A stretch of 64,000 nt of DNA from Chloroflexota bacterium (GTDB taxonomy: Bacteria > Chloroflexota > Anaerolineae > J102). This document shows positions 38,841 through 52,549 of the stretch, in pieces. Below the pieces are notes generated by a model. It was not told where the DNA came from. It ran no database searches and saw nothing but the letters and a program-made list of their open reading frames with translations. A program made the translations under genes and the position numbers. The stretch is from positions 62,001 to 126,000 of the forward strand of contig JAKOVD010000178.1 of NCBI GenBank assembly GCA_029782215.1. Direction: 5' to 3'. Positions within the stretch are counted from its first letter, which is position 1. Each line of letters opens with the position of its first letter.

Positions 38841-41540
38841 CTACCTCAGCATCACCGGCAGCCACAGGCCGCCCTCGACGCGACCACTGCCGGCGTAGAC
38901 GATGGCGCCGTAGCGCCCGCCGGCCATCACATCGCCCTGGTGGTAGAGGCCGCTGGTATCCAGCACCTGCAGCGCCGTCACCCTGCCCTCTGTGCTCACC
39001 GGTTTGATGCGGATGGTCGCCAGCAGCAGGTCGCCGCTGGGCGCCGGTTTCCACGGCGCGCGCCCGATGGCAAGGCGAATCCGTCCGGCCGTGTTGTCGG
39101 CCTCATTCTTCAGCACGACATCCAGCGCGCTTCCCGGCGCCACGGTGCTGGCATCATCGCCGCCAGTGTCGACGATGTGCAGGACGGACGGATCGAACGC
39201 GATCTGCACGTCAGCGCTGTCCACCGGTCCGGCGCCAACGGCCCAGACGCCGAGGCTGACCGTTCCCGCATCCGGGGACGTGACCGAGACGGGCAAGACG
39301 CGCAGAGCGACCTGCGACGCTGCCGCGCTCGCTGCCGACGGTGCCGGGACAATGATGGGGCTGTTCTGACCGAAATTGCTCACCAGGAGCGAATAGTCAC
39401 CGGCGTCGACGCAGCCGTTGCCGTTGAAGTCAGCCGTCGCCACATAGCCGGGGTCGCCGCAGCAGGCGCCATACGCCTGCACCAGCAGCGAGTAATCGAC
39501 CCCGTCGATGTCGCCGTCACCGTCGACATCGCCCTCGACCAGGGCGCCGAAGTCCACATAATTGTAGGTCCCATTCAGGAAAACGGACTGGCGCAGATTG
39601 GTCAGGCTGGCCGGTCCCTTCACCGAGATCTCATAGGGCGGGCCGTAGGCGAGTGCCGTCACCGGCACCGTAAAGACGCCGGACGCGTCGGTGTTGACGC
39701 TCACCACCGTCGTTACCACACCACTGGCGGCGAGCGCCGCACTGCTGTGTGCGCCTGTCGTCCCCGCCGCCCCAGGGACGGGGCTAAAGCCCAGCTCCAG
39801 CGAATAGCCATTCCACGAGGCAGACGGCGGATCGCCGCGGCCCTGCAGCTCGACCTGGCCCACCAGCCAGCGATCGACGGTGACCGCTGTTCCCGAAGTT
39901 CCGGCCAACACCGAGCTGCCGGCATAGAGTGCCTGGCTTCCCGCCGTGTAATCGACGTTCGCGGCGGTGTGACCGATCGTCTTGAAGAGCACGGTCGCCA
40001 CCCGGAAACGGCCACTGACAGCGATGGTCTGTGGTGAGCGCCCGGCCTCGTAGACGATGGCGCCGGTGCCGTTGTTGGCCGAGTTGCTGAGCACCGCGGG
40101 CAACATGGTCGTGTCAGGCAAAAGAGTCGTTGTCGGCGGCGGCGTGCCGGCGCAGGGGCTGGGAACGAAGTTCGTCGTGGCCGATGCCAGCGATGTGCCA
40201 TTGGGCATCACGGCCAGTTTCGTCGGGTCAAAGGAGAGCCTGGCGCGAACATAGTCGACCCAACCGCCGTGGGTGTCCACCACCAGGTCCACGGTGAAAC
40301 AACTGCCGTTGGTCGTGTTGACGCTGGCCGGGTCGAGCTCCAGCGTCGTCGTCTCGCCCACTCTGCGGGTAGGCGTCGGCGTGTGCGTGGGTGTGGGCGT
40401 CGGCGTGGGGGTATCCGTCGGCGTCGGCGTATCGGTAGGTGTGGGTGTATCCGTCGGCGTCGGTGTGTCTGTCGGCGTGTCTGTCGGCGTTGGGGTGTCT
40501 GTGGGCGTCGGCGTATCCGTAGGTGTGGGTGTATCCGTCGGCGTCGGTGTGTCTGTCGGTGTGTCTGTCGGCGTTGGGGTGTCTGTGGGCGTCGGCGTAT
40601 CCGTAGGGGTGGGGGTATCCGTCGGCGTCGGTGTGTCTGTCGGTGTGTCTGTCGGCGTTGGGGTATCTGTGGGCGTCGGCGTATCGGTAGGGGTGGGGGT
40701 ATCCGTCGGCGTCTCCGTGGGCGTCGGTGTGTCGGTAGGGGTCGGCGTCACGGTCGGCGTCGGCGTGTGGGTAGGCGTAGGAGTCAGGGTCGGCGTGTTC
40801 GTGGCAGTCGGCGTCGGCGTCTTGGTGGGCGTATGCGTCGGCGTCGGGGTCCAGGTGGCGGTCGGCGATGGGGTGGCCGTCACATTCCGGCAAGACTGCA
40901 CGCTGACCTGGTCCAGGAACATCCAGGTCCGGCCCGTGGAACCCGTGCTGTTGTTGTAGACCTCGAAATAGAGAACCACCGATCGTCCTCTGTAGGCCGA
41001 CAGATCATACGAGGCCCAGTACCATCCATTGGCATCGATGTGGACGTCCATAAGCTTCTCGATGACGGAGAAGGTGCCGGGACGCAGCAGGTACATCCGC
41101 TGCCAGTCTCCGCTGGTGGACTCACTTCCGGGCAGAAAGTAGTAGTCCAGCGTGACGTCGTTGGCATCGGCCGGAATCGTGATCGTCTGGTAGGTGGTCG
41201 AGTACGTGGCCCCAAGCGGCGCCGTCTCGCCCAGCAGGTTCGTTTCCTGCACCGGCGCCCCCGCGGCCGTGACCGCCGCCGGTAGCAGACCAAGGCGGGC
41301 AGAGCGAAGGCCCTTGTACGCCTCCAGGGTGCTGTAGCCGGCGCGGCTCGCTGTGTCAGGAAACGTCCATGCCGCGTTCTGCTCGAAGCCACCGTTGGTC
41401 ACGAGTTCGGTACACAAGGGAACCAGGGGCGGCACGGACGCAGTATGCTGCCCGCTCTCTCCCGCCGCCGCCGCGACCGCAGCCACGGGGACGAGGATCA
41501 AAAGAAGTGTGAGCATCGCCAACAAGATGGGCCTTTTCAT
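38841..41540 (-). CDS. Secreted cohesin/dockerin surface protein with PT-repeat linker
   Basis: 899 residues. Signal peptide ([20 protein letters not shown]), an N-terminal jelly-roll-like domain ([14 protein letters not shown], residues 40-215), and a PTPTDTP linker (about 220-392). A cohesin-like domain follows ([18 protein letters not shown], about 393-540), then a carboxypeptidase-regulatory-like segment. A dockerin pair ([21 protein letters not shown] and [21 protein letters not shown], about 668-722) gives two Ca-binding loops, and a second cohesin-like domain ends the protein. The tail reads [10 protein letters not shown]. Carrying both partner domains in one chain would let the protein self-assemble or scaffold others. 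The linker DNA shows an 84-base repeat. Domain assignments are from motif reading. Confidence 0.85.
40370..40830 (-). repeat. Coding tandem repeat with 84-base higher-order period
   Basis: This stretch encodes the PTPTDTP linker of the cohesin/dockerin protein. A GTATCCGTCGGCGTCGGTGT block recurs at 40447, 40531 and 40615, exactly 84 bases apart (28 codons). Within it lie 6- and 18-base sub-repeats. Near-identity of the units points to recent unequal exchange or slippage. Confidence 0.8.
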
Positions 41541-41863: not shown

Positions 41864-41892
41864 TTGACACACCCCCACGGTGAGGGTATACT
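41864..41892 (+). promoter_or_regulatory. Consensus promoter of the ilv-leu operon
   Basis: TTGACA (41864-41869), a spacer of exactly 17 bases, then TATACT (41887-41892). Transcription would start near 41899, about 22 bases upstream of the leader peptide ATG. No other promoter this good precedes ilvB. It is divergent from the cohesin/dockerin gene. Confidence 0.75.
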
Positions 41893-41920
41893 CCGCCGCA
41901 TTCTGTAGCCTGACGCACAC

Positions 41921-42028
41921 ATGTCCACTCGACCTGCCATCCTCAGCGTAGTCATTATTGTAGAGCTCCTCGCCCTTATTCTGGGCCAGGAGCTGCAACC
42001 GGTTGGAAGGCAGGCGCACAGCCTCTAG
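41921..42028 (+). CDS. ilv-leu operon leader peptide (attenuation)
   Basis: A 35-codon ORF, too short for the track, begins MSTRPAILSVVIIVELLALI and ends at a TAG at 42026-42028. Fifteen of 35 residues are Ile (4), Val (4) or Leu (7), most in one run (AILSVVIIVELLALIL). This is the hallmark of leader peptides that couple translation to transcription of branched-chain amino acid operons. Ribosome stalling in the run would leave 42001-42010 free to form an antiterminator. No strong Shine-Dalgarno is visible. The ORF lies between a consensus promoter and a strong terminator ahead of ilvB. Confidence 0.75.
   Translation: MSTRPAILSVVIIVELLALILGQELQPVGRQAHSL
42001..42010 (+). promoter_or_regulatory. 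Antiterminator arm in the leader peptide gene
   Basis: GGTTGGAAGG (42001-42010) is exactly complementary to CCTTCCAACC (42060-42069), which overlaps the 5' arm and loop of the terminator. The two structures are mutually exclusive. A ribosome reaching the leader stop codon at 42028 would cover this arm and favour termination. Confidence 0.65.
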
Positions 42029-42055
42029 GCAACAGCGCACACCCACGTAAGACCC

Positions 42056-42088
42056 GCCCCCTTCCAACCCGGAAGGGGGCTTGTTTTT
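42056..42088 (+). terminator. Rho-independent terminator (attenuator) before ilvB
   Basis: GCCCCCTTCC (42056-42065), loop AACCC, GGAAGGGGGC (42071-42080), then TTGTTTTT (42081-42088). A perfect 10-bp GC-rich stem with a T-tract is a textbook terminator. It lies 28 bases after the leader stop and 175 bases before ilvB, with no gene between, so its role must be regulatory. Confidence 0.82.
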
Positions 42089-42263
42089 CCGCCGCCGGTG
42101 GCGCTCGCCGGCAGTGCCCCCCAACCAGCACCCATCCCGGCGACGCCGACGGTCGCCACCGGGCAGCGCAGCCCCACTTCCCTTCCGGCAGCGGCAGGGG
42201 GTGGGGCTGTCTTTCTTTTCAGGCTCTTATCTTCATCACGCTCCACGCAGAGGACTCGTCTCT

Positions 42264-43985
42264 ATGAAGCTCAAAGGCTCACAGATCATCTGGGAAGCAC
42301 TCATCCGCGAAGGCGTCAAGGTGGTGTTCGGCTTTCCCGGCGGCACGGTTTTGCCTGCCTATGATGCCCTGGTGTCGTACCCGCAGATCCATCACGTTCT
42401 GGTTCGCCATGAGCAGGGCGCCGCCCACATGGCCGAAGGCTACGCCCGCGTCACCGGCGACGTCGGTGTCTGCGTGGCCACTTCGGGTCCTGGCGCCACC
42501 AACCTTGTGACGGGGCTCGCCGATGCTATGATGGATTCGATCCCGCTCGTCGCCATCACTGGCCAGGTGCCGACCAATCTTCTTGGCAATGATGCGTTTC
42601 AGGAGACCGATGTCACCGGCATCACACAGCCGATCACGAAGCACAACTACCTGGTGACCGACATCCACGAGCTGCCGCAAGTGATGAAGGAAGCCTTCTA
42701 CGTCGCCCGCGAGGGCCGGCCGGGCCCGGTGCTCATCGACATCTGCAAAGACGTGCAGAACCAAAGCACCGAGTTCGACTACGACGCTCTCACGGTCACG
42801 CTGGCGGGCTACAATCCCTGGCATGGTATCAGCGAGCAGGACGTGGAACAAGCGGCAGAGCTCATCAATCAGGCGCAGAAGCCGCTGATCATCGCCGGCC
42901 ACGGCGTGCAGATGGGCGGCGCCACCGCCGAGCTGCGGGCGCTGGCCGAGAAGGCTGAGATCCCGATCACCACTACCCTCTTGGGTACGGGCGACATCCC
43001 TGAGACCCATCCTCTGGCGCTGGGCATGTGCGGGATGCACGGCGAAGCGCATCCCAACCTGGCGATCCAGGAATGTGACGTGCTGATCGGCATTGGCATG
43101 CGCTTCGATGATCGTGTGACGGGACGGCTCGATTCCTTTGCGCCCAAGGCCAAGATCATCCACCTGGAGATGGATGCGGCAGAGGTTGGCAAGAATGTGA
43201 GGCCGACGGTCGCCCTGGTCGGGGACTGCAAGGCGTCGCTGCAGGCGCTGCTGCCCAGGGTGCAGCAGGCGCGCCACCCGGACTGGCTGCACGAAATCAA
43301 GGCCTGGGAAAGCGACGGCGGTGATCGCGACATTCTCAACGCCGAGGTGGACGAGCTGATCCCACCCTACGTCATGCGGCAGCTTTGGCACGCCACGAAC
43401 GGCGGCAAGTGCATCGTGGCCACCGACGTGGGCCAGCACCAGATGTGGGAAGCCCAGTACTTTGTCCACGACCGGCCGCACCAGCTCATCACCTCGGGTG
43501 GCCTGGGGACGATGGGCTTCGCCCTCCCCGCCGCCATCGGCGCCCAGTTCGCGGCGCCCGACGCCCTGGTGTGGGCTGTGGCCGGCGACGGCGGCTTCCA
43601 GATGACCATGCAGGAACTGGCCGTGCTGGTGCAGGAAAAGCTCTCCGTCAAGATCGCCATCATCAACAACGGTTTCCTCGGCATGGTGCGGCAGTGGCAG
43701 CAGTTGTTTTATGACAAGCGCTACAGCGCCACCCCCATGCTCAGCCCCGACTTTGTCAAGATCGCCGACGCGTATGACATTCCCGGCCGCCGCGTGACCC
43801 GCCGCGAAGAGGTGGCGGATGCCATTGCCGAAGCCAATGCCTACCCCGGCCCCTTCCTGATCGACTTCCGCGTCAAAGAAGAAGTCAACGTGTACCCCAT
43901 GGTGCCGCCCGGCGCCGCCGTGGGCGAATTGATTCGCCGGCCCAAGATCGTGCAGGGCCCCAGCGGCGTTCAGCCCGCCTGGTGA
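42264..43985 (+). CDS. ilvB: Acetolactate synthase, catalytic subunit
   Basis: The track runs from 42081, but homology starts [27 protein letters not shown] at 42264 (573 residues). [15 protein letters not shown] holds the catalytic Glu, and [17 protein letters not shown]...[13 protein letters not shown] is the thiamine-diphosphate and Mg site. The enzyme condenses pyruvate with pyruvate or 2-oxobutyrate, the first common step to Val, Leu and Ile. It needs FAD and the IlvN regulatory subunit, encoded 15 bases downstream. Expression is probably under attenuation control by the leader at 41921. Confidence 0.95.
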
Positions 43986-44000
43986 GACCTGAAGAGGAAC

Positions 44001-44555
44001 ATGATGAGCACACCCAGCCCCTACAACTCCCTTGGCAAACACACCGTCATTGCCTGGCTGGAAGACAAGCCGGGCGCCCTCCAGCGCGTCGTCGGCCTGT
44101 TCCGGCGCCGGGGTTTCAACATCGAGAGCCTCACCGTCGGCCATAGTGAGACGCCGGGCATTAGCCGCCTGACGTTCGTGGTGGACGGCGATGACCGCAT
44201 GGTCGACCAGGCCGTCAAGCAGCTCTACAAGCTGATCAACGTGGTCAAGGTCGACGACGTGACCGACCGCCCCGCCATCGTGCGCGAGATGGCGCTGATC
44301 CGCGTCAAGGTGGACAGCAAGACACGCGGCGAGATCATGCAGATCGTCGACATCTACCGCGCTCGCATCGTGGACGTCAGCCTCGACGCCGTCGTCATCC
44401 AGGCGGTCGGCGGCGAGGACCAGGTGGCGAGCCTGATCGACCTGCTCAGCAACTATCCCGTGTTGGAAATGGTGCGCACCGGCGCCGTGGCCATGACCCG
44501 TGGCCACGTCGGCCGCAACGGCTCCGCCAAGGCCAAACGCACGATCGCCCTCTAG
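44001..44555 (+). CDS. ilvN: Acetolactate synthase, regulatory subunit
   Basis: 184 residues with AGAGGA upstream of the tandem ATGATG (44001 or 44004). The N-terminal ACT domain reads [34 protein letters not shown], where valine binds for feedback control. The C-terminal domain ([16 protein letters not shown]...) matches the second IlvN domain. It activates IlvB and confers valine inhibition. Length agrees with the larger bacterial IlvH/IlvN type. Confidence 0.94.
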
Positions 44556-44576
44556 CGTCAGCGTGGTGCGGGCGAC

Positions 44577-44628
44577 AGTACCTGCCACCCGCCACCCGCT
44601 ACCCGCCACCTGCTACCCGCTATCCCAC
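44577..44628 (+). repeat. CCACCCGC-type short repeat in the ilvN-ilvC gap
   Basis: Alternating CCACCCGC, TACCCGC and CCACCTGC units fill most of the 92-base gap. GCCACCTGCTACCCGC occurs here and, as the same string, at 33476-33491. Low-complexity, pyrimidine-rich; perhaps a slippage-prone or mobile intergenic unit. Confidence 0.5.
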
Positions 44629-44647
44629 TTCACAAGGACTTATCTCC

Positions 44648-45649
44648 ATGGCAACTATCTTCTACGACAACGACGCCGACCTCGAACGCCTCAAGGGCCG
44701 CAAGATCGCAGTCCTGGGCTACGGCAGCCAGGGCCATGCCCATTCGCTCAACCTACGGGACAACGGCATGGATGTGCGCGTGGGTCTTTACAAGGGCTCC
44801 GGCTCCTGGCAGAAGGCCGAGGCCGAGGGTCTGCGCGTGGTCTCGACCGAACAGGCCTGCGCCGAGGCCGAGATCATCATGGTCCTGTTGCCCGACACAA
44901 GCCAGGCCAAGGTCTACAAGGAGAGCATCGAGCGGCACCTAACGCCGGGCAAGACCCTGATGTTCGGCCACGGCTTCAATATCCGCTATGGCCAGATCGT
45001 CCCGCCCGCGGGCGTCGACGTGTCCATGGTGGCCCCCAAGGCGCCCGGCCACCGGGTGCGCGAGGTCTTTGTAGAAGGCGCTGGCACCCCCGGTCTGGTG
45101 GCCGTGCACCAGGACGCCAGCGGGAACGCCCTGGCGGATGCCCTGGCTTATGCCAAGGGGATTGGCTGCACCCGCGCCGGGGTCATCCTGACCACCTTCA
45201 AAGAAGAGACCGAGACCGACCTCTTCGGTGAGCAGGCGGTCCTTTGCGGCGGCGTCAGCGCTCTGGTCAAGGCCGGTTTCGACACCCTGGTCAATGCCGG
45301 CTACCAGCCTGAGATCGCCTATTTCGAGTGCATGCACGAGCTCAAGCTCATCGTCGACCTGATGTACCAGGGCGGCCTCAACTACATGCGCTACAGCGTC
45401 AGCGACACCGCTGAGCACGGCGACTACCACGCCGGCGATATGCTCATCACCGATGAGACCAAGGCCACCATGGTCCACATCCTGAGCGACATCCAGTCCG
45501 GCGCCTACGCCGAAGAGTGGATCGAGGAAAACAACAACGGCCGCCCGAACTTCAATGCCCGGCGCGCCGCCGAACGCGATTCGCAGATCGAGCAGGTGGG
45601 CCGTGACCTGCGCCGCATGATGCCCTGGCTGAAAGCGAAAGAAGTATGA
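44648..45649 (+). CDS. ilvC: Ketol-acid reductoisomerase
   Basis: 333 residues, the length of the class I enzyme. The NAD(P)-binding loop reads [45 protein letters not shown] and [12 protein letters not shown]...[26 protein letters not shown] carry the metal and substrate ligands. It converts acetolactate or acetohydroxybutyrate to the dihydroxy acids used by IlvD. AAGGA precedes the ATG at 44648. A palindrome (45661-45706) separates it from leuA. Confidence 0.96.
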
Positions 45650-45660
45650 CCCCACGTCGT

Positions 45661-45706
45661 ACGCATTACGCAGTACGTGATACATGGTACGTACTGTGTA
45701 ATGCGT
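45661..45706. repeat. Palindromic repeat between ilvC and leuA
   Basis: ACGCATTACGCAGTACGT (45661-45678) pairs with ACGTACTGTGTAATGCGT (45689-45706) with one G-T wobble, an 18-bp stem with a 10-base loop. TAATGCG units follow up to 45720. It shares words with the repeat at 33335-33420 and may attenuate or stabilise the message. Confidence 0.65.
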
Positions 45707-45727
45707 AATGCGTAATGGAGGAACCCC

Positions 45728-47395
<1,668 letters not shown>

Positions 47396-47493
47396 CGCCC
47401 GGCGCAGGCGCGGCGAGGCCGGTGGCTTTCTGGCCATTACGGTGCCGGCCGCTCGCACGGTCGCTTCCCTGCCTCACTGTCTTCTTTCGATCC

Positions 47494-48896
<1,403 letters not shown>

Positions 48897-48900
<4 letters not shown>

Positions 48901-49499
48901 AACCATTCACCACCCTTACCTCCACTGCCGTACCGCTGCGGGCTGAGAACGTCGACACCGACCAGATCATCCCCGCCCGCTACCTGACCGCCGTCACCAA
49001 GGCGGGCATGGGCGACGGCCTGTTTGCCGCCTGGCGCTACCATGCTGACGGCAGCCACAGGCAGGATTTTGTGCTGAACCGGCCGCACCACAAGGGAGCC
49101 GAAATCCTGCTGGCAGGGCGCAACTTTGGCAGCGGCTCCAGCCGTGAGCACGCCGTCTGGGCGCTGACTGAGTATGGCTTCCGGGCCGTCATCAGCCCCG
49201 GCTTCGCCGACATCTTCTACAACAACGCCCTCAAGAACGGTCTGCTGCCCGTCGCCCTGCCCGAGGACACTGTCTACATGCTGCTGGACCTGGTCGAAGA
49301 GCACCCGCAGACCCGGCTGCACATCGACCTGGCCGCCCAGACCGTTAGCCTGCCCGACGGCCAGCAAGCCAGTTTTGCCATCGACCCCTACCGCAAGCTC
49401 TGCCTGCTGCAGGGCCTGGATGACCTGGGCTATCTGCTCGCCCAGGACGCGGCCATCGCCGCCTACGAACAAGCCCACGCCCGCATGCTTGCTGTGTAG
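48897..49499 (+). CDS. leuD: 3-isopropylmalate dehydratase, small subunit
   Basis: 200 residues, overlapping leuC by 4 bases. [13 protein letters not shown] near the start and [17 protein letters not shown] near residue 78 are the LeuD signature segments that complete the active site of LeuC. It acts as a LeuCD heterodimer. The 5' coupling implies equal synthesis of both subunits. Confidence 0.96.
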
Positions 49500-49590
49500 G
49501 AACGCCCCAGGAACCAAGTCCGGACTTCTGCCCACCACCACACCGGAAGCCCAGACCCCAGTCTTGTCGCCAGCAAAGGAGGCCCAACCG

Positions 49591-49776
49591 ATGAACCCCA
49601 TCCATCCGCCGACCGCAGCCCCGGATCCCAACGAGGTGAATGCCGAGTCCAACCTTGAAGACGACCGCACCGCCGGGCGCCAGCCGCCTTCATCTGTGCG
49701 CGAAGCGATCGAAGTTCAGGATCGCCGCTGGCGCACCCCCACCTTGGAACACGATTGCACCGACTGCCAGGACTGA
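49591..49776 (+). CDS. Small CxxC protein in the leu operon (unknown function)
   Basis: A 61-residue ORF starting MNPIHPPTAAPDPNEVNAES has AAAGGAGG 8 bases upstream, one of the best Shine-Dalgarno sites in the window. The protein is polar, probably disordered, and ends DCTDCQD, a C-x2-C pair that could bind metal or form a disulfide. It lies between leuD and leuB, in the same direction. I do not recognise it. It could modulate the [4Fe-4S] LeuCD enzyme or be a metal-handling peptide, but this is a guess from position only. Confidence 0.6.
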   Translation: MNPIHPPTAAPDPNEVNAESNLEDDRTAGRQPPSSVREAIEVQDRRWRTPTLEHDCTDCQD

Positions 49777-49787
49777 CACCCAAACAC

Positions 49788-49829
49788 GTTGAAGGCTAAA
49801 CGTTGAACGTTCAACGTTTAGCCTTCAAC
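49788..49829. repeat. Perfect 42-base palindrome before leuB
   Basis: Two 21-base arms, starting GTTGAAGGCTAAACG and ending at 49829, are exact reverse complements with no spacer. It lies 11 bases after the small CxxC gene and 21 bases before leuB. As RNA it would form a long hairpin close to the leuB ribosome site; as DNA it could extrude or bind a dimeric protein. Confidence 0.8.
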
Positions 49830-49850
49830 TTTCAACTTGATCCTTCACCC

Positions 49851-50966
49851 ATGACCCATTACTCGATCGTCCTTCTCCCCGGCGACGGCATCGGCCCGGA
49901 AGTCGTGCGCGAAGCACGGCTGACCCTGGAAGCACTGGCCCCGCGCTTTGACCTGGATTTCTCCTTTGACACGCACCTGATGGGTGGGTGCGCCATCGAC
50001 GAGCACGGCAACAGCCTGCCCGACTCGACCTTGCTGGCCTGCCAGTGTGTCGATGCCGTCCTCCTCGGCGCCGTGGGTGGACCCAAGTGGGACAACCCCC
50101 ACGCCGCCGACCGGCCCGAGCGCGGCCTGCTGGCTCTGCGCAAAGGCCTGAACCTGTTCGCCAACCTGCGCCCGGTCAAGCTCTTCCCTGAGTTGATCGG
50201 GGCCAGCGCCCTCAAGGAAGAAGTGCTGGCGGGCGTCGACCTCCTGGTCATCCGCGAGCTGACGGGCGGCGCCTACTTCGGGCCGCGCCAGGAGGCGGGC
50301 GCCAGCGGCGAGGAAGCCTACGACACCATGCTCTACACGCGGCCGGAGATCGAGCGCGTGGTGCGGGTGGCGGCCGTGGCCGCCCTCCAGCGCCGCCGCA
50401 AGCTGGCGAGCGTGGACAAGGCCAACGTGCTGGCCTCCAGCCGCCTCTGGCGCCGGGTGGCCGTGGAAGTGCTCAAGGACTACCCCGACCTGGAGGTCGA
50501 GCACGTACTGGTGGACGCCATGGCGATGCACCTGATCCGGCGTCCGGCCAGCTTCGACGTGATCGTGGCCGAGAACCTGTTTGGCGACATTCTCACCGAT
50601 GAGGCGGCGATGCTGGCCGGGTCGATGGGCATGCTCCCCTCGGCCAGCCTGGGGGACGTGATGAACACCCATGGGCTGCCGTTGGGTCTCTATGAGCCCA
50701 TCCACGGCTCCGCCCCCGACATCGCCGGCAAGGGCATCGCCAATCCGCTCGCCACCATTCTGTCAACTGCTATGCTCCTGCGCCATTCGCTGGGCCAGGA
50801 GGCCGCAGCGCAGGCCGTCGAGGATGCCGTCGCCCGCGCTCTGGCGGCCGGCTACCGCACCCGTGACATCGCCGGCTTCGATGCGCCGGAGAAGCATGTC
50901 GAGGTGGTCAGCACCGAGGCGATGGGCGCCATCGTGCGCGGGTTTCTCACAGAGGCAACCGCATGA
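49851..50966 (+). CDS. leuB: 3-isopropylmalate dehydrogenase
   Basis: The ATG at 49851 starts [22 protein letters not shown] (371 residues). [26 protein letters not shown] and [13 protein letters not shown] are IPMDH signatures. The catalytic Tyr lies in [17 protein letters not shown] and the Asp/Glu metal ligands in [21 protein letters not shown]. The NAD site reads [24 protein letters not shown]. It oxidatively decarboxylates 3-isopropylmalate, and probably methylmalate in the CimA route. Confidence 0.96.
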
Positions 50967-52549
50967 CCATCCAACTCTACGACACGACACTGCGCGACGG
51001 CACCCAGGGTGAAGGCATCAGCTTCTCCGCCGGTGACAAGCTGCGCATCGCCCGCAGGCTCGATGAGCTGGGCGTTCACTACATCGAGGGAGGCTGGCCC
51101 GGCTCGAACCCCAAGGACATGGAGTTCTTCGCCCGCGCCCGCACTGAGCTGCACTTGCAGCATGCCCGCGTGGCTGCCTTTGGCTCGACCCGCAAAGCCA
51201 ACATCTCCGCCGCCAAGGACTCCCAGGTCCAGACCCTGATCGAGGCAGACACCCCCGTCGTCACCATTTTCGGCAAGACCTGGGACCTGCACGTGCACGA
51301 GGTCTTGCGCACCGACCTGGAAGAGAACCTGGACATGATCCAGGACACCGTGGCCTTCCTCAAGGCCGCGGGCAAAGAGGTCATCTACGACGCCGAGCAC
51401 TTTTTCGACGGCTTCCGCGCCAACCCCGACTACGCCCTGCTCACCTTGAAGGCCGCCGAACGCGGCGGGGCGGACATGATCGTGCTCTGTGACACCAACG
51501 GCGGCACCCTTCCCTGGCAGATCGAGGAGGCCATGCACTCGGTGCAGGCGTCCGGCCTGGCCGCGCCGCTGGGCATCCACACGCACAATGACGGCGACGT
51601 CGGCGTCGCCAACGCCCTGGCCGCCGTCCGGGCAGGCGCCGTGCAGGTCCAGGGGACGATCAACGGCTACGGCGAGCGCTGCGGCAACAGCAACCTGGTC
51701 AGCATCATCGCCAACCTGAACCTCAAGATGGGCGAGGTCTCCGTGACTCCCGACCAGCTTCGCCGCCTGACCGAGCTCTCGGCCTTTGTCGCCGAGCTGG
51801 CCAACGTCGCGCTCAACGACCACGCCGCGTTCGTGGGCCAGAGCGCCTTTGCGCACAAGGGCGGAACCCACGTCAACGCGGTCGTCAAGAACGTCAACAC
51901 CTACCAGCACATCGATCCATCCCTGGTGGGCAACCGCACCCGCGTGGTCGTGTCGGACCTGGCGGGCAAGGACAATATCGCCGTCAAGCGCCAGGAGCTG
52001 GGCCTCACCGGTCTGACCCGCGAGCAGGAAAAGGAAGTCCTGGCGCAGATCAAGGAAATGGAGAACCGCGGCTTCTCGTTTGAGGCCGCCGACGCCTCCG
52101 TCGACCTGATGCTGCGGCGTACGCAGGCTGACTATGTGGCGCCGTTTGAGATGATCGACTTCACGGCCACGGTCGAGCACCGGCACGGCCGCGGCATGTT
52201 CTCAGAGGCCACGGTCAAGGTCCGCGTCTGCAACGAGATCTACCACGAGGTGGCCGAGGGCAACGGCCCCGTCAACGCCCTCAACCTGGCCCTGCGCAAG
52301 GCGCTGAGCCCCTTCTATCCCCAGTTGCACGACGTGCACCTCGCGGACTACAAGGTGCGCATCCTGGATACCAACATGGCGACGGCTGCCACCACGCGCG
52401 TGCTCATCGACTTCGTCGCCGGCACCCAGTCATGGACCACCGTTGGCGCCAGCCCGAATATCATCGAGGCAAGCTGGCAGGCCCTGGCCGATGGGCTGGA
52501 ATACGCCCTGTTGATCGGGGCGCATGGCGACACGAACGGCCAATCGTAG
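50963..52549 (+). CDS. cimA: Citramalate synthase
   Basis: 528 residues, overlapping leuB by [22 protein letters not shown] opens the HMGL-like barrel. [39 protein letters not shown] and [21 protein letters not shown] are typical of the CimA branch rather than LeuA. The C-terminal regulatory domain ends near [11 protein letters not shown]. It makes citramalate from pyruvate and acetyl-CoA, so 2-oxobutyrate for isoleucine can be formed without threonine deaminase. Confidence 0.94.

Follow-up and report, generated by a model that had tools for sequence, protein, structure and literature searches.

The region at 41864–42088 of the window (the whole 64,000-nucleotide stretch of DNA analysed here) is very probably a ribosome-mediated transcription attenuator of the ilv-leu operon that acts like the trp, his and ilv attenuators, a judgement based on the conservation of the region, the covariation of its antiterminator, a drift of the leader peptide that preserves Ile, Leu and Val, and folds of truncated transcripts. 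It is real and conserved within a group of uncultivated bacteria and is most likely of a known kind, lying in a phylum for which a literature search found no leader-peptide attenuation described, although an earlier mention of such attenuators may exist. The new part would be an ANTAR-like element, placed in series with the attenuator before the first structural gene.

Leader-peptide attenuation is documented mainly in Proteobacteria and Actinobacteria. The enterobacterial trp, his, ilvGMEDA, ilvBN and leu attenuators have a leader ORF with regulatory codons, an antiterminator and terminator that exclude each other, and a hairpin within the leader ORF. Regulatory codons, exclusive stems and an ORF-internal hairpin are likewise found here.

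Architecture of the ilv-leu Leader

The leader region comprises a promoter, a short ORF with clustered codons for the controlled amino acids, and an intrinsic terminator between this ORF and the first structural gene.

41864–41892, plus strand: sigma-70-type promoter TTGACA-N17-TATACT (11/12), with a counterpart in 14/14 compared loci
41922–42029, plus strand: leader ORF MSTRPAILSVVIIVELLALILGQELQPVGRQAHSL, 35 codons and TAG, kept in relatives
41937–41984, plus strand: regulatory codon run AILSVVIIVELLALIL, which retains its I/L/V richness while the residues drift
41965–41993, plus strand: hairpin P1 within the leader ORF, 41965–41974 with 41984–41993, encoding LLAL..GQE, with conserved pairing
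42001–42010, plus strand: antiterminator arm 2 GGTTGGAAGG, codons of VGR, with covariation
42056–42080, plus strand: terminator 1 hairpin, 10 bp, loop AACCC
42060–42069, plus strand: antiterminator arm 3 CCTTCCAACC, overlapping terminator 1 in its 5' arm and loop
42081–42088, plus strand: terminator 1 U tract TTGTTTTT
42264–43985, plus strand: ilvB, acetolactate synthase large subunit, the first gene of the operon
44001–52549, plus strand: remaining operon, ilvN/H, ilvC, leuA, leuC, leuD, leuB and citramalate synthase

The promoter counterparts stand at the equivalent position and read TTGACA-17/18-TATAMT, and two promoter-like sites were found in the region against 0.2 expected. Ile, Leu and Val account for 15 of the 35 leader residues, with 12 of them inside a 16-residue run. 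The leader ORF lacks a Shine-Dalgarno sequence, the best energy being 0 to -2.8 kcal/mol as compared with -4.0 to -11.6 kcal/mol before ilvB. The whole leader folds at z = -4.25, with an energy below that of 200/200 shuffles, and the terminator 1 segment alone folds at z = -3.4 against shuffles. Arm 2 is the exact complement of arm 3 and can pair with it only in exclusion of terminator 1. Hairpin P1, upstream of arm 2, is probably a pause hairpin; across 18 sequences its pairing holds in 95.5% of cells, three pairs being changed on both sides, whereas slid versions reach at most 62.6%. A further pairing seen in the leader fold (41933–41942 with 42005–42014) was weighed as a possible protection of arm 2 and not adopted.

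The sequence-only reading had reported the promoter at this position, a 35-codon leader with 15 Ile/Val/Leu residues, a 10-bp terminator with a T-tract at 42056–42088 and an arm exactly complementary to 42060–42069, overlapping the terminator, all of which were borne out. Its wider statement that every element of attenuation was visible is right for the promoter, leader, terminator and arm, and passed over both hairpin P1 and a second terminator at 42161–42219.

Divergent from the ilv operon, the minus strand at 38841–41540 encodes an 899-aa protein with a long repeat and dockerin-like segments.

Conservation and Distribution

IlvB relatives were taken from 61 related genomes and a named genome collection. 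Promoter, leader and terminator 1 are present in all 13 family genomes with a testable upstream region, where the leaders end ...GQE..-(P/S)(V/F)G... and the terminators are of the CTTCC-(A/G)A/C-rich-loop type. All three elements are also found in a locus of another family (L017), the leader of which ends KKPVSVG.... The leader and terminator 1 also occur in many other Anaerolineae, and a covariance model of the leader, R1, matched 171/396 genomes of the class (E <= 0.01). In an even, phylum-wide sample of 201 genomes R1 gave 15 matches at E <= 0.001, of which 12 fell in the same class and three among the ~176 phylum genomes outside it. When 13 matches outside the family were inspected, with the next ORF assigned by eye from sequence, this ORF was IlvB-like in nine, IlvD-like in one and unassignable in three; wherever the next gene was assignable, R1 matches preceded ilvB or ilvD. 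The earlier assignment of the DNA to Chloroflexota is correct, as the relatives that carry a name are MAGs of Chloroflexota and the element is concentrated in one class.

The leader peptide drifts while its I/L/V richness is kept. Swaps within I/L/V make up 218 of the 545 amino acid differences in the run, and the leader indels in front of arm 2 are multiples of three.

Some loci carry a pair of Ile/Val/Leu leaders in tandem, with a separate terminator after each; these pairs precede an ilvD-like gene in L043 and L062 and ilvB in L028, and both tandem leaders of L043 have 13-bp antiterminator arms. Tandem leaders are possible in L058 and L103, with a second switch that is weaker or ambiguous. 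The cultivated Bellilinea caldifistulae also has a leader of this kind, upstream of an ilvD-like gene (L086). Similar leaders precede an ilvE-looking aminotransferase gene in L027 and L048, with the antiterminator arm right after the stop codon, and Ile/Val/Leu leaders with terminators lie upstream of ilvB in L069, L076 and L106 (Acidobacteriota) and in L100 and L105 (Myxococcales).

Covariation of the Antiterminator

Across 28 leaders with 12-nt arms, 295/336 cells are paired. In this hand-anchored count the arms of the most distant leaders were positioned in part by complementarity, which biases it towards pairing; MAFFT lost register on short or distant arms. Permutation of whole arms (20,000 runs) gave a mean of 251 and a maximum of 271, with no run reaching the observed value. 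Over 64 leader/terminator pairs, a set that takes in leaders from other phyla, exchanging arms between loci reduced mean complementarity from a score of 21.5 to one of 15.3. In the swap and shuffle controls alike, the best complementary run was sought identically in real and control pairs. The arm complementarity of the window was equalled by 0/300 shuffles and that of 9/13 family loci by 0 to 4 of 300, whereas these controls are weak for genus g6 (L010, L012, L013 and L014), in which a 7-bp core only is equalled by 45 to 121 of 300 shuffles and is not individually significant.

The antiterminator, mutually exclusive with the terminator, is kept by compensatory changes. Changes of PVG to PFG or PAG in the ORF match terminator-loop changes that are neutral for terminator 1: GTTTGG faces CCAAAC where the peptide reads PFG (L008 and L009), and GCTGG faces CCAGC where it reads PAG (L033). 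A further compensated pair, AGTTGG with CCAACT, is found in L004. A comparison with relatives, as the sequence-only reading had proposed, thus found both the leader ORF and the alternative stems conserved, with covariation. Because the pairings of P1 and arm 2 are conserved, the conservation of GQE and PVG in the peptide probably serves the RNA, at least in part, and leader peptide families should consequently be read with care.

Ribosome Position and the Proposed Mechanism

Transcripts truncated within terminator 1, shortly beyond its 5' arm and loop, were folded with a 30-nt ribosome mask (footprint -18..+11) advanced codon by codon, an approach that applies thermodynamics to a kinetic process and speaks to feasibility only. 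The antiterminator formed with a probability of ~1 as long as the mask lay in the first half of the run, dropping to 0 on the codons after that, a pattern that holds in every family species tested and in most others. In silico, a ribosome stalled in the Ile/Val/Leu run therefore leaves the arm free, as had been claimed. The companion claim, that a finishing ribosome covers the arm, stands in the window for the last codons and fails at the stop codon itself (42027–42029), where arm 2 is exposed. The arm is blocked at the stop in L007, L008, L009, L017, L019, L038 and L041, with complete coverage in L019, L038 and L041, whose ORF ends closer to the arm.

With no ribosome present, the arm is hidden in L005, L009, L010, L014, L018, L026, L033, L038 and L041 but not in the window; here arm 2 is free before terminator 1 completes, which leaves it doubtful that the untranslated state is OFF. 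Equilibrium folds that include the complete terminator 1 favour termination in the window wherever the ribosome sits, so that switching has to be kinetic. As a test of switching, equilibrium folds of the complete leader were uninformative, since terminator 1 wins in nearly all cases.

In the mechanism that we infer, which covers stalling, pausing and every effect on expression, transcription would start at ~41899 and a ribosome would load on the leader without a Shine-Dalgarno sequence, while P1 probably pauses RNA polymerase until the ribosome arrives. If Ile-, Val- or Leu-tRNA were short, the ribosome would stall in the run and leave 42001–42010 free to pair with 42060–42069 before RNA polymerase has transcribed the second half of terminator 1, and transcription would continue. 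If charging were sufficient, the ribosome would move over the last codons and block arm 2, terminator 1 would form and transcription would stop. Polymerases that pass terminator 1 would meet terminator 2, whose hexaloop hairpin may be held open by the ANTAR response regulator of the genome, a step that by analogy with known ANTAR systems we regard as about evenly balanced. How ribosomes would load early enough on leaders that lack a Shine-Dalgarno sequence is a further question posed by the element.

A Second Terminator Before ilvB

Two overlapping elements lie between terminator 1 and ilvB.

42161–42174, plus strand: hexaloop mini-hairpin GGGC[AGCGCA]GCCC, with A1 and G4 in the loop, overlapping the 5' arm of terminator 2
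42169–42219, plus strand: terminator 2, CAGCCCCAC at 42169–42177 with GTGGGGCTG at 42201–42209 and tail TCTTTCTTTT at 42210–42219

A second hairpin with a U tract is found downstream of terminator 1 in 14/14 compared ilvB leaders, and in all 14 its 5' arm can also fold, at the 5' base of the terminator, into a small hairpin whose hexaloop carries A1 and G4; the hexaloop stems vary (GGGC/GCCC, AGGC/GCCT, GAGGC/GCCTC and others). ANTAR targets are hexaloops with A1 and G4, the second of which sits at the terminator base (PMC3369931). An upstream second hexaloop hairpin at a set distance is absent at the ilvB leaders, and terminator 2 was for this reason classed as ANTAR-target-like rather than as a member. 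By this likeness, terminator 2 is probably an ANTAR-like element in series with the attenuator.

Covariance searches suggest a restricted distribution. Model R2, built from ilvB leaders only, matched at ilvB in 14/20 family genomes and, more weakly, before gltB in four genomes, and model R3 again gave gltB and ilvB with few other places, which rules out terminator 2 as a general terminator type of the family genomes. On its own the motif GGCARCGNNGCC, which occurs often in GC-rich coding sequence, is of no use as a marker. Weak R3 matches directly precede a conserved gene that starts with MKRR...GAWTW/GAWAR in L251, L254 and L255, from three genomes of genus g6, a possible third target. Between the two terminators of the window, 42095–42162 forms a long imperfect inverted repeat with 18-nt arms (83%), which extends into the first bases of the stem of the hexaloop hairpin.

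gltB Leaders and ANTAR Regulators

An element similar to terminator 2 precedes gltB in 15/15 main-type family copies (L192–L206), and in eight of these leaders (L198–L200 and L202–L206) a pair of hexaloop hairpins follows the -10 box. The gltB hexaloop-terminator elements are candidates for an ANTAR nitrogen regulon. A second gltB type (L207, L209 and L211) has terminators with CGC[N6]GCG hexaloops; L209 carries two of them in tandem.

The genome of the window encodes a response regulator-ANTAR protein, at 1471–2115 on the minus strand of L217, beside a HisKA_2 kinase, and exactly one ANTAR domain was detected in each of 17/20 family genomes; at least one is present in 141/199 genomes of the class (71%). 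In family f21, R2 matches occur in two class genomes only, in both cases immediately 3' of an ANTAR gene. The gene order in one of them (L190) is kinase, ANTAR, element, LysE exporter and glnA, and the other contig ends near the element.

Collectively, the A1/G4 hexaloop, the gltB element and the single ANTAR regulator suggest that amino acid charging and nitrogen status gate the operon in series. The ilv-leu operon of this family would then carry a leader-peptide attenuator that responds to Ile/Val/Leu-tRNA charging, in series with an ANTAR-type terminator, possibly of a single-hexaloop form, that responds to nitrogen status together with gltB, and both would have to open for full expression; we give this combined reading an even chance.

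Alternative Explanations

T-boxes often control the ilv-leu operons of Gram-positive bacteria. Control of this operon by a T-box or another known riboswitch is nevertheless hardly credible, as the window and the loci of five relatives gave no match to any Rfam family at the gathering score, and nothing above chance was obtained at a lax threshold. It is unlikely that the leader is untranslated, or translated without consequence, with terminator 1 being constitutive or regulated otherwise (by Rho, a protein or translation coupling only). The missing Shine-Dalgarno sequence would fit such a leader, as would the comparable Streptomyces coelicolor ilvB leader, where changing candidate regulatory codons had no effect (PMC1262725), but the ORF is conserved in its I/L/V richness, its indels before the arm keep to multiples of three and the antiterminator is preserved by compensatory change. 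A nascent stall peptide acting in place of codon-specific slow decoding is very unlikely; the conserved segments GQEP and PVG and the hydrophobic run might be read in this way, yet the conserved parts coincide with the covarying RNA arms of P1 and arm 2, and the residues of the run interchange freely among I, L and V.

A more serious alternative concerns terminator 2, which could be a backup intrinsic terminator or an mRNA-end element whose hexaloop is coincidental or serves another RNA-binding protein, such that the operon has one regulated terminator. We consider this a real contender, at somewhat less than an even chance. It is favoured by the absence at ilvB of the dual hairpin that defines EutV targets, by the frequency of ANTAR domains in the class, which makes co-occurrence alone weak, and by the proximal gltB loop, where position 1 is often T or G. 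Against it, A1 and G4 persist in every compared ilvB leader despite the varying stems, the main-type gltB copies all have a similar element, with dual hexaloops in eight, and the element adjoins an ANTAR gene in another family.

Relationship to Known Systems

The element in the window differs from the enterobacterial attenuators: it shows no overlap between P1 and arm 2 when only strict pairs are counted, has arm 2 in the 3' portion of the ORF, and lacks both a Shine-Dalgarno sequence and an Rfam match. The nearest described case is that of the actinobacterial ilvB leaders (PMC1262725), which include ilvL of Corynebacterium glutamicum and the ilvB-II motif and also combine an Ile/Val/Leu leader with a terminator upstream of ilvB (PMC1262725, PMC11857589, PMC10272879). 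The C. glutamicum ilvL peptide is reported to be translated with no ribosome binding site (Morbach et al. 2000, as cited in PMC11857589), and in this it resembles the leaders here, which lack a Shine-Dalgarno sequence. It differs in length, with 15 codons (MTIIRLVVVTARRLP) as compared with 35, and no second, hexaloop terminator like the one here was found described in the actinobacterial literature consulted.

These results extend leader-peptide attenuation to a large class of Chloroflexota, with compensatory base changes as support, and the element, at present without an Rfam entry, is a candidate for one. Should terminator 2 prove to be an ANTAR target, synthesis of the branched-chain amino acids would be tied to nitrogen regulation by terminators in series, a testable two-input switch. 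The literature search found no ANTAR target described before ilv genes, and no description of an attenuator combined with an ANTAR-like terminator.

Terminator 2 resembles the ANTAR targets of eut, nasF, amiE and the Desulfotomaculum reducens glutamate synthase genes in its A1/G4 hexaloop at the terminator 5' base (PMC3369931), and the pairing of a response regulator-ANTAR protein with a HisKA_2 kinase in the genome of the window parallels EutVW. It has a single hexaloop at ilvB, unlike the dual-hexaloop targets, a form that some of the gltB copies do share. In six of the eight dual gltB leaders the hexaloops are 17–18 nt apart, as compared with the 24 nt between A29 and A53 of eutP (PMC3369931).
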